Of a stretch of 32,280 bases of DNA, positions 1,749 through 6,659 are shown piece after piece. Position 1 is the first letter of the stretch; each line of letters starts with the position of its first letter. Under the pieces are notes generated by a model that was not told where the DNA came from, made no database searches, and saw only the letters and a list, made by a program, of their open reading frames with translations. A program made the translations under genes and the position numbers. The DNA is taken from NCBI GenBank assembly GCA_020853015.1, contig JADYZQ010000128.1, forward strand, positions 1 to 32,280, written 5' to 3'. The DNA comes from Deltaproteobacteria bacterium (GTDB lineage Bacteria; UBA10199; DSSB01).

Positions 1749-4541
1749 CTACCGGCGCCTTCCCCGAAAATACTCCGAGAGATCGAAGAAGCCCGCCTCC
1801 CCCGCGACCCACTTAGGCACCCGCGCCCCCGCGGCCGCCTCCGCCGCCACGTGGTAGACACGCACGCGCGAGGTGTCGACGCCCAAGGCCTCCGCCTGGT
1901 CCAGCAGCTCGCGGGTGCGCGCGGGCGGGATGTGGATCGGCGGGACGCCGCCTTCGATCAAAAAAACCGGCGGCGGGCGCTGCCCCTTCGAGGCCATCAG
2001 CAGGGCGTTGTGGCGCAGGATCTGCTGCGCGCGGCCCACGCTGAGCAGGGGCGGCTCGAGCGCCTGGGCCTGCGTGTGCCGCCAGATGTCGACGTGGTCG
2101 GCGAAGGTGTCCCCGGTGAAGGAAACCACCAGGCGGCCGCGCCGGGCATCGGGCCGGTCGTAGATTTCGAAGCCGATCGTCGGGACGGGATGGAAGGAAT
2201 ATTCGGGCCGCAGGTGCAGGCCCAGGACCTCGGAAAAGCTCTGCGGGTAGATCGGCGAGAAGCTCCACTCTCCGCCCAGCTCGCCCAAGGCCTGGGCGTA
2301 TTGCCGCTGCAGCATCCGGAAGATGGTCGGGGTGGTGTAAAATTTCAGCTCGGGCAGGGCGGCGCGCAGCTGGGGGACGGCGTTGCCGTAGTGGTCGGTG
2401 TGGCCGTGGGTCAGCAGGACGCCGTCGATCGAGGACAAGGGCAGCCGCATGGCGCGGAAATACTCCAAGGTGCTCGAGGGCGGGTCGACGATCACCGTCT
2501 TGCCGCGATTCCAGATCATGAAGCCGCTGGTCTCCTCGCGGGGCGTGAAGCCGTGGCCGGTGCCGATCGGCCAAAGGGCCGGGCGCCCCTCGTTCAGGAC
2601 GCGGCGCCGGGCGTCGCGGGCCGCGGGCTCCGGCCGCGGCGCGGCGGGGGGCGAGGGCAGCGGGAAGCTCGAGAGGTCGACGACGCCCAGGGAGGCGCCG
2701 CCGTCCAGGATCTCGTAGCGGCCCGTATTCAATTTTCTCACCACGACCTCGCCCCAGGCGAATTCCCCGGCCTCGTTAAGGTGTTCGATCTTTCGTAGCG
2801 CCTCGGGCTCGGCCGCGGGGAAGCCGCGACGGATCTCCTCGCCCATGCGCGGCGGCGCGGCGGCGCCCGGGGCGTATTCGCGCAGGACCTGCTCGGTGAG
2901 GTCGGTTTCGCGGGGGCCCAGGTAGGAGAGGTCGAGGAATTCCCGCAGCCGCCGCGCGGTCGGCGCGTCCTGCGTCACCAGGGTCGTCTCGAGGCCCCGC
3001 GTGACGAAGTACATGTATTGCATGAAGTCGGCGGGCAAGAGCCCGTCGTGGCGCGCGACGTAGTCCAGGTCGAAGACGTAGAGGGTGGGCAAGAGCCGCT
3101 TGACTTCCTCGCGCTGCAAGCGTCCGCCGCCGGCCTGGAGGAAGATCTCGAAGGCGTCCTTATTCGTCCACATCGGGACTCCGAGCTGCAGCCAGCCCTG
3201 CGAGGTTTGGACCATCACGCCGCCGCGGGGCAGGGCGCGCAGCCGGTCTGCGGGCACCGTCGTGCGCGGGACCTCGAGGATCGCGACACCGTTGGTATTC
3301 GCCGGCGAGTCGTTCGGCAAGAGAGGTTCCTTGCCGCCCCCCCGGCCCCGCCCGGAGGCCGACATCGCGAAACTCGTCCATTCCCCGACCTGCGAACCGC
3401 GATCCGCTGCGGGTCTCATGCCTGCGAGGGCGCCTTGCGGCGCGAGTTCGAGGAGGCCGGGGCGGGGCGGACGGGGGAGGCGCGCCAACAGCCCCGCTTG
3501 CGCGTCGAGGCCCCGTTCCCAGGCGGCGAAGCGCGGGCCGAAGGCGTGGCGGGTGAGATTTCCCGCGACGTGGAATTGCAGCAGCAGCGCGAGGGAATCG
3601 ACCAGGGTCGTGGCGCCGTCGTGAGCGGGGCGGAGGCCGGCGTATTGCTCGAGCGTATGTCCGAGGAGGATGCCGGACAGCATCCCCGTTTGCTGGAACA
3701 ATGCCTGTAGGGGCCCTTCGCGAACGGCCCCTACGGACCCCGCGATATTGCGATAGCTCGCCCCGCTGGCCCATCCCCCCAAACGCAAGGCACCTAACAA
3801 TAGGTAACTCGAAGCAATATCCCGCCCCCAGGCCGAGGCGTTTCCCTCCTGCCGATGTCCCAGCGTGGCACCCGCCAAGCGCCCCGCGATGACGAAGGCC
3901 GGCGCCTCGGCGGCAAAGCCCGCGAGCGAAGCAAAGCGGCCCGCGCCCAAGACCCGCGTGAAGAGGCCCGGGCTGGAGGCCCCCGCGAGCCGCGACAAGG
4001 TCGCCAGCCGCGTCACGCGGTACACCGCGCCCGCCGCGCCCATGGCGAAGAGGGCGCCGGGCTCGCTGGCTTGGTGGGCGAGGTTGCGGAGGAGGAACTC
4101 GGCGCGGGGGCCGAAGGCGCCGCGGCCGAGCAAAGCGTCGAGTTCTCTTTCTGCGCGACGCTGCAGGGGCCCTTCGCGAACGGCCCCTACGATTACGGCA
4201 AAAACCTCGACGGCCGATTCCAAGCGACCGTTCCGCTCCTGCCGGATGCCAAAATTTAACAGGGATTCAAAAAAAAGACTGGGATCCGTCTCCGCCCGCA
4301 GCGCCGCCAGTTCTCGGCGATCCGTTTGGGAGAGGCCGCCGCGCGAGCGCCCCTCCAGCTGCGCGAGGATCCGCCCGCGCTGGACGCCGAAATCCGTCTC
4401 AGCGGAAGCCTTGCCCGCAGGCGTGGCGGCGGCCCCGTGCCCGAAAAGCCCCTCCGGTCCCGGCGCCGTCCTTGGAAAGCCGATCGTCACTCTTACCTCG
4501 CTCGAAAAACCGCTTTCTAGGTACTGCTTAGGGTGGAACAA
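1749..4541 (-). CDS. large protein with C-terminal metallo-beta-lactamase-fold hydrolase domain and alanine/glycine/leucine-rich N-terminal region
   Basis: 930 aa; C-terminal LLTHGHTDHYGN (HxHxDH), YTTPTIFRMLQRQYA, HPVPTIGFEIYDR, SFTGDTF, FLIEGGVPPIHIP. TTG start as in the ORF track; a downstream GTG start is possible. Confidence 0.8.
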   Translation of the reverse strand: MFHPKQYLESGFSSEVRVTIGFPRTAPGPEGLFGHGAAATPAGKASAETDFGVQRGRILAQLEGRSRGGLSQTDRRELAALRAETDPSLFFESLLNFGIRQERNGRLESAVEVFAVIVGAVREGPLQRRAERELDALLGRGAFGPRAEFLLRNLAHQASEPGALFAMGAAGAVYRVTRLATLSRLAGASSPGLFTRVLGAGRFASLAGFAAEAPAFVIAGRLAGATLGHRQEGNASAWGRDIASSYLLLGALRLGGWASGASYRNIAGSVGAVREGPLQALFQQTGMLSGILLGHTLEQYAGLRPAHDGATTLVDSLALLLQFHVAGNLTRHAFGPRFAAWERGLDAQAGLLARLPRPPRPGLLELAPQGALAGMRPAADRGSQVGEWTSFAMSASGRGRGGGKEPLLPNDSPANTNGVAILEVPRTTVPADRLRALPRGGVMVQTSQGWLQLGVPMWTNKDAFEIFLQAGGGRLQREEVKRLLPTLYVFDLDYVARHDGLLPADFMQYMYFVTRGLETTLVTQDAPTARRLREFLDLSYLGPRETDLTEQVLREYAPGAAAPPRMGEEIRRGFPAAEPEALRKIEHLNEAGEFAWGEVVVRKLNTGRYEILDGGASLGVVDLSSFPLPSPPAAPRPEPAARDARRRVLNEGRPALWPIGTGHGFTPREETSGFMIWNRGKTVIVDPPSSTLEYFRAMRLPLSSIDGVLLTHGHTDHYGNAVPQLRAALPELKFYTTPTIFRMLQRQYAQALGELGGEWSFSPIYPQSFSEVLGLHLRPEYSFHPVPTIGFEIYDRPDARRGRLVVSFTGDTFADHVDIWRHTQAQALEPPLLSVGRAQQILRHNALLMASKGQRPPPVFLIEGGVPPIHIPPARTRELLDQAEALGVDTSRVRVYHVAAEAAAGARVPKWVAGEAGFFDLSEYFRGRRR
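3705..3735. repeat. 31-nt palindromic repeat copy 1, inside the MBL gene (CTGTAGGGGCCCTTCGCGAACGGCCCCTACG)
   Basis: 30/31 identical to 4161-4191; palindrome GTAGGGGCC-C-TTCGCGAA-C-GGCCCCTAC with a single mismatched pair. Confidence 0.85.
4161..4191. repeat. 31-nt palindromic repeat copy 2, inside the MBL gene (CTGCAGGGGCCCTTCGCGAACGGCCCCTACG)
   Basis: 30/31 identical to 3705-3735; same reading frame (peptide VGAVREGPLQ in both places). Confidence 0.85.
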
Positions 4542-5597: not shown

Positions 5598-6659
5598 GTG
5601 AAGCGGAATCTGCTGAAATTCTTCCTGATTTTTCTAGGGCTCGCGGCCTTGGCCGCCTGCGGGGGCGGGGCGCCGCAGATCAGCGGCATCGTGGCCGTCG
5701 CCAATTTCGAGACCACGGCCTGCGTGAAGGCCGAAAAGACCATCCAAATCCGCAACAACGATTCCGAAGAGCCCCAACGGGTGCAGGGCGTGCACTTCGA
5801 GTTCGGCACCAATGATTTCGACAAGGAAGGCATTCGCCCCGAGACCCTGGAAGAGGGCGAGACCTACTTTCAGTTTTTCAAGGTGGAAGAGGTGACGGTC
5901 GGCAACGTCGTCAAACAAGCGGTCAATAATATGGTGACCGAGATGATCCTGCCGCCGGGCGGGGTCATGACCGTGAAGGTCAGCTACACGCCCAAGGTCA
6001 TCACCAAGGCCGAGACCTTCCACAACACCTACCTCGACATCGTCCTCAACGGGCCCAAGCTGGGCGTGATGCAGATCGAGCTGCGCGGCAAGGCCGCGAC
6101 CGCGGCGCCGGGCTGCACGACCGACGGTGGCACCGGACAAGAATTTGAAGTCACCGCCGTCAAGACCACGTTGAGCCATCAGGACAACGGCTCCAACGTC
6201 GTCACCGACCTGGATGTCGCCACCGCCGTGAGCGGCACGCTGAAGCTGAGCGAGGTCGAGGGCGGCAAGGTGAAGGTCCTTCCGGAAAATTGGCCCAAGA
6301 TCACCTTCCCGCTGCCGGCAGGCTCCCCGCTCACCGAGCTGGAGATCAAGCTGGCCGAAGAGACCGGTGAGGCCCCCTTCGGCGACGACGGCGTGCTTAC
6401 CTTCGAGGGCGTGGCCTTCTCGGGATCGAACGTCGTCAACCTCAGCGATCTCACCCTCACCACCGGGACCGTCACGATCGACAGCTCGAAGGCGCCCAAG
6501 GTGGTCGGCGGCACGATCAGCTTCGAGGGTTCGCCCTTGAACGACGCCGGCGAGATGAAGCTCGTCGTCGCCGCGCCGCTCACGGTGCCGCCCGTCGACA
6601 CCGTCGCCAAGGTCGGCGGCGGGGTGTTCGGCATGGAAATTACCTTGAAAAAGAAATAG
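5598..6659 (+). CDS. predicted lipoprotein of unknown function
   Basis: GTG start giving VKRNLLKFFLIFLGLAALAAC|GGG (lipobox LAAC); rest secreted and beta-rich. Confidence 0.75.
   Translation: MKRNLLKFFLIFLGLAALAACGGGAPQISGIVAVANFETTACVKAEKTIQIRNNDSEEPQRVQGVHFEFGTNDFDKEGIRPETLEEGETYFQFFKVEEVTVGNVVKQAVNNMVTEMILPPGGVMTVKVSYTPKVITKAETFHNTYLDIVLNGPKLGVMQIELRGKAATAAPGCTTDGGTGQEFEVTAVKTTLSHQDNGSNVVTDLDVATAVSGTLKLSEVEGGKVKVLPENWPKITFPLPAGSPLTELEIKLAEETGEAPFGDDGVLTFEGVAFSGSNVVNLSDLTLTTGTVTIDSSKAPKVVGGTISFEGSPLNDAGEMKLVVAAPLTVPPVDTVAKVGGGVFGMEITLKKK

Follow-up and report, generated by a model that had tools for sequence, protein, structure and literature searches.

A dispersed GTAG/CTAC-ended palindrome resides in frame at recurrent protein loops and is length-neutral in most loops compared

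Introduction

The GTAG-tagged REPs are short dispersed elements with lineage-specific stems that occur in single and two-hairpin forms; they are mostly intergenic and some lie in ORFs (PMC3733652). The super-family includes intragenic members (Di Nocera et al. 2013, PMC3733652), which sometimes occur as two copies in a single ORF or at nearly the same position of recB in two species, and a GTAG motif left unpaired at one end of the stem-loop is a defining feature (PMC3733652). The Rickettsia palindromic elements (RPEs; Ogata et al. 2000, cited in PMC2635572 and PMC3733652) are likewise palindromes that lie in frame in functional protein genes. In-frame palindromic repeats have so far been treated as insertions that the protein tolerates.

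The palindrome described here is related in kind to the GTAG-type REP elements, and GTAG-tagged REPs in ORFs (PMC3733652) are the closest known kind. The likeness lies in its 28-bp length, its many dispersed copies (42 in the draft genome studied, G000, and 67 in the congener G001), its GTAG ends and its partly intragenic location. It differs in that GTAG pairs with CTAC and leaves no unpaired tag, in that no linked RAYT gene was found, in the placement of about half of the copies in one paralogous family and in an apparently length-neutral entry. It works like a GTAG REP, but because its GTAG is paired and no linked RAYT was found we do not class the 28-mer as a member.

Three other systems invite comparison. 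Sister elements with two inverted hairpins between GTAG and CTAC (L068, L148, L153 and the LeuRS of G004) resemble REPINs (Bertels and Rainey 2011, PMC3116915), whereas the 28-mer is a single hairpin and does not flank the Y1 loci read in G001. As with RPEs, palindromes lie in frame inside functional genes with one frame favoured, here in several unrelated genes; RPEs are described as inserts, while most loops here gain no net residues. PARCELs (Roske et al. 2010, PMC2996958) likewise combine a palindromic DNA sequence with a protein-coding role and are shuffled within and between genomes, but they form tandem arrays of a 25-residue motif, unlike the single units of 9-10 residues found here, which lie 152 residues apart in unrelated flanks.

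Results

The preliminary description of the window (the whole 32,280-nucleotide stretch of DNA that was analysed) reported a palindromic repeat at 3705-3735 and 4161-4191, with 30 of 31 positions identical and a spacing of 456 bp. Both copies were said to lie in one frame in a 930-aa MBL gene and to encode VGAVREGPLQ, with no internal duplication of the surrounding protein sequence. All of this holds. The palindrome proper is 28 bp long, GTAGGGGCC(G/C)TTCGCGAA(C/G)GGCCCCTAC, and the MBL fold is assigned by Pfam to the C-terminal part. The features of the gene are as follows.

1749..4541, minus strand: host gene, 930 aa, with an N-terminal family domain and an MBL-fold C-terminal part (ORF and Pfam)
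3510..4328, minus strand: N-terminal domain of ~273 aa with acceptor loops A and B (~70 paralogues; no Pfam or PDB match)
4163..4190, minus strand: 28-bp palindrome, site A copy (first in gene orientation), VGAVREGPLQ; 12 of 14 base pairs match
3707..3734, minus strand: 28-bp palindrome, site B copy, VGAVREGPLQ; 13 of 14 base pairs match
2106..2528, minus strand: MBL-fold part of the host gene (Lactamase_B / Lactamase_B_2 matches; Pfam, residues 672-812 converted to window coordinates)

The 456-bp spacing places sites A and B 152 residues apart, and their unrelated flanks rule out domain duplication as the source of both copies. The core of the palindrome has four matches on the two strands of the window and none in 100 dinucleotide shuffles which, with the absence of control matches in the genome (below), rules out a chance palindrome. 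A separate 45-nt inverted repeat (1567-1735; 87% complementary, 79 nt apart) lies between an acyl-CoA dehydrogenase-like gene and the end of the MBL gene.

The draft genome (2.73 Mb, 349 contigs, 81% complete) was searched with the pattern GTAGGGGCCNTTCGCGAANGGCCCCTAC, allowing up to 3 mismatches, and with the reversed pattern as a control. The palindrome pattern was found at 42 places and the control at none; the palindrome is therefore a dispersed repeat. When all places and their flanks were read and the spanning ORFs scored, 20 of the 42 copies fell in one protein family and 22 outside it, of which one lies in a HEAT-repeat protein (L018) and the rest in no convincing gene. There were 67 copies in the congener G001 and none in the congener G002. 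The preliminary description had proposed a dispersed palindromic element that can sit inside proteins in frame and had called for a genome-wide search for more copies; that search bears the proposal out, with about half of the copies outside recognised genes.

The 28-mer is part of a wider set of GTAGGGGC...GCCCCTAC palindromes that extends across the class and several phyla. Palindromes of this form with lineage-specific centres were present in 18 of the 40 genomes searched, in up to 59 copies, against 0-1 matches in the controls. The present type itself was matched exactly in genomes of Nitrospinota, Acidobacteria, Thermogutta, Chloroflexi/SAR202, Abyssobacteria, Glassbacteria and Desulfobacca. 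A palindrome that differs in its centre (GTAGGGGCTGGACGTGTCCAGCCTCTAC, VGAGRVQPLQ) is read in frame at L043:3075-3102, in a 673-aa ORF resembling an NHL-repeat protein. No credible Rfam family was found for the palindrome, and the literature searched for the DNA word GTAGGGGC held nothing related among the matches listed. Viral carriage was considered and set aside, as the tested pattern had no match in the viral contigs of the collection searched.

Candidate mobilisers were sought as Y1 (RAYT) transposase genes. There were none in G000 (81% complete) or in G017 (98% complete), which has 13 related palindromes. G001 carries three, and the loci read (C5, C6) are not flanked by the palindrome; a RAYT-linked REPtron was thus not found in G000, G001 or G017. 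Nearly identical Y1-type (RAYT-like) genes of 236 aa in G001 (L215, 7577-8284, plus strand; L216, 2702-3409, minus strand) adjoin no GTAG palindrome. Among the G000 and G001 loci compared there was no clean 28-bp empty site, most copies being common to both genomes and the differing sites differing by larger segments; no target-site duplication was seen in this comparison, and no strain pair differing only by the palindrome was found. Two intergenic segments of about 125-150 bp that bear the palindrome occur in G001 but not in G000 (L154, about 4176-4307 and 6422-6594, compared with L165), with flanking genes that match well.

A search for the N-terminal domain of ~273 aa gave 71 matches in G000; the congeners G001 and G002 had at least 63. 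Elsewhere in the same taxonomic family, G003 has 37 matches and G004 at least 63; further out, G007, of the same order, has 4, and three other genomes of the class have single weak matches. The domain is nearly confined to one GTDB family, and neither a Pfam model nor, by profile, a PDB chain matched it. The C-terminal parts joined to it are very diverse and include the MBL fold, sigma-70 regions, a PALP enzyme, acetyl-CoA carboxylase-type domains such as biotin carboxylase/carboxyltransferase, histidine kinases, helicase-like parts and HTH (alignment A1; L047, L142, L163, L165, L166, L169, L174, L178). This uncharacterised domain may be a common targeting or scaffold module.

Within the domain the palindrome occurs at only two places, sites A and B, and these two fixed loops hold about half of the G000 copies. 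At both loops, most paralogues lack a palindrome and have an unrelated sequence. In other paralogues the loops are occupied by other GTAG/CTAC-ended palindromes, namely a 49-bp long form of the same palindrome, whose two orientations give the peptides VGAVRACPPDGGNGPLR and VGAVPPLTGDKREGPLQ; VGANLVFAP...GGRTQGSPLQ, in which two hairpins lie between GTAG and CTAC; VGTEHVQPLR; and one about 103-140 bp in length. Removing the inner 19-21 nt of the long form yields the short one. At L022 and L030, G000 has the short form where G001 has the long one, and in the orthologous pair L066/L154 the two forms differ by a 21-nt gap within the palindrome. Alternation of short (28 bp) and long (47-50 bp) forms at the same loci is seen in L022/L160, L030/L158 and L066/L154, the inner hairpin being 19-21 nt.

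G002 keeps palindrome-like sequence at some sites, with 9-11 mismatches at A and B and 10 in HEAT, so that part of the similarity may be ancient. Native loops have a loosely similar pattern, for example LGAAPEGPQRN in G002. Such loops, and the half of the copies that lie in the family, would be expected if the palindrome had been born as native coding sequence of the family and had later escaped to intergenic sites. We consider this origin very improbable: the same palindrome is present in genomes and phyla in which no copy of the domain was found, and also in LeuRS, RecG and YggS; the variants that mark genic copies are seldom seen in intergenic ones; and the loop sequence is unrelated in most paralogues.

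Loop lengths at A and B were measured between fixed anchors. At site A, the 20 loops with the 28-mer measure 32 aa in 12 cases, 38 aa in 7 and 47 aa in 1; the mode in the element-free loops of G002-G004 is 32 aa. At site B all 20 loops with the 28-mer are 38 aa long, and element-free loops range from 30 to 48 aa, with a median of 38 in G002-G004. Residues are in fact added in the longer site A loops (38 and 47 aa) and by the long forms, loops with long and two-hairpin forms reaching 69 aa.

The palindrome also resides in proteins unrelated to the family. The HEAT protein carries it in G000 and G001, and among the class relatives it was found in LeuRS (G012 and, in the same loop, G001), in RecG (G039) and in a YggS-like protein (G032); the names LeuRS, RecG and YggS-like rest on recognised sequence motifs and not on a database match. 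The proposed ability to sit in frame inside proteins thus extends to unrelated genes. Simple insertion predicts a gain of 9 to 10 residues, yet the net length differences from orthologues over these four proteins range from -5 to +3 aa. HEAT orthologues align gap-free in G002 and G005 and are 1-2 residues short in G004. LeuRS has changed by about -1 to +2 residues and the YggS-like protein by -5. The RecG of G039 has gained 2 residues (6 nt) relative to an orthologue 84% identical to it, and in this pair the palindrome takes the place of the native DNA, with good matches on either side. In the HEAT gene of G002, the site of the palindrome is the best match to it in that gene (10 mismatches; the next has 13), which suggests either decay or a pre-existing similarity.

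The preliminary description held that each copy adds VGAVREGPLQ and looked to alignment for palindrome-free orthologues shorter by 9-10 aa. No such gap appeared, and loops with the palindrome have native length, so this claim is not supported. Length neutrality is a property of the loops compared, ancestral loop lengths not being known.

These lengths bear on the main rival to substitution, an RPE-like in-frame insertion of about 28-30 nt followed by trimming of the loop under selection. REPs and RPEs inside ORFs, as described or cited in PMC3733652, are a precedent for it; short native loops exist as possible recipients; and some loops are indeed longer (38 and 47 aa at A, up to 69 aa in the long or two-hairpin forms). 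However, insertion would have had to be followed by trimming to near-native length at A, at B, in HEAT, twice in LeuRS, in RecG and in YggS, and repeated exact trimming is not parsimonious; the RecG copy is only 6 nt longer than an orthologue of 84% identity. We regard insertion with trimming as possible but rather doubtful.

One LeuRS loop holds GTAG palindromes of three different sequences in G001, G004 and G012, and other hairpin-forming repeats in G010 and G031. Repeats of several types were thus found in this loop in five of about 30 genomes compared. The five in-frame repeats are in L274 (G001), L275 (G004), L270 (G012), L294 (G031) and L295 (G010), and the two of non-GTAG type read PSPFPSPSRGEGEGGG and LTLTLSPKGRG...PLGGEGARRADEG. 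The mixed contents of this loop and of loops A and B are evidence that certain loops take up such repeats time and again and are recurrent acceptors.

All 53 elements at A and B (40 short and 13 other) are read in phase 0; these 53 share ancestry. Phase 0 is also used in the independent cases of HEAT, of LeuRS in G012, G001 and G004, and of the YggS-like protein, while the RecG of G039 uses phase 1. As read from the sequence, phase 2 of the palindrome gives a TAG stop. The earlier suggestion of a single tolerated frame agrees with 53 of 53 elements at A/B and with every independent case but one, and fails at RecG; one frame is favoured and not required. The same description had asked whether the peptides fall in loops of a modelled structure. 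A single-sequence AlphaFold model (mean pLDDT 47) is reliable only for about residues 1-80, a part that includes site A, modelled as a helix-turn-helix. VGAVREGPLQ at residues 47-56 is predicted to close one helix, turn at 50-53 and open the next. Site B lies beyond the reliable part of the model.

Among the paralogues the 28-mer is far better conserved than its surroundings (0.86-0.89 identical, against 0.50-0.55 for the next 30 nt at A and 0.60-0.76 at B). Two diagnostic variants common to the genic A and B copies occur in 26 of 42 of these and in 4 of 49 elsewhere, the copies not being independent. Between G000 and G001, orthologues whose proteins are 86-93% identical have different loop contents, the differences lying mostly in short patches around the loop. 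These patterns in the aligned sequences suggest that short tracts are exchanged among the paralogues, probably by gene conversion.

Two further explanations can be weighed against these data. In the first, the palindrome is kept in genes for a function in DNA or RNA (a protein-binding site, a hairpin or a recombination site), with the peptide as a by-product. Near-identity of the 28-mer among paralogues with diverged flanks would fit this, as would the strong hairpin fold of the one LeuRS copy folded; we nevertheless think it improbable, since both loops lack the palindrome in most paralogues and G002 has none, different palindromes replace the 28-mer at the same loop, and asymmetric variants, in which a pair is broken, are frequent among the genic copies (16 of 42). 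In the second, a single ancient acquisition in the ancestral domain was followed only by gene duplication and decay, as might be read from the single length of all 20 site-B loops with the 28-mer and from the palindrome-like remnants in G002. For the family as a whole this is largely refuted by the conservation of the 28-mer over its flanks among old paralogues, by the several different palindromes in the same loops and by orthologue pairs that differ in loop content; as a general account its chance is slight, and it may hold for single site B lineages.

Discussion

The palindrome is a dispersed element that resides in frame in proteins at recurrent loops. The explanation towards which we lean, with a little better than even confidence, is that of a dispersed GTAG/CTAC-ended repeat which occupies intergenic DNA and a few acceptor loops, enters the latter in a length-neutral manner and is converted among paralogues. 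On this explanation the palindrome would fill acceptor-loop positions that orthologues hold with ordinary residues, as it is seen to do in loops A and B, in the HEAT turn and in the LeuRS, RecG and YggS loops, and it is this occupation that makes entry by length-neutral substitution probable. Persistence could be due to the encoded VGAxxxxPL(Q/R), which would supply the end of a helix, a turn and the start of a helix, as one partial model and the alignments suggest. The ~70 paralogues would then exchange loop palindromes among themselves. Against this explanation, no clean event was caught among the G000 and G001 loci, and trimming after insertion is possible, given that native loops vary and the lengths of the ancestral loops are not known.

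We also offer, tentatively, the bolder idea that such repeats overwrite coding sequence instead of interrupting it, by templated length-neutral exchange at recurrent loops, with the family using its two loops as interchangeable cassettes. Should entry prove length-neutral and keep recurring at the same loops, the repeats would be a source of loop replacement, and the route would have to be substitution by repair or recombination, not transposition alone. With two genomes rich in copies and one that has none, the genus allows the question to be tested directly by strain comparison. If overwriting is true, proteins would acquire repeat-encoded turns at unchanged length.
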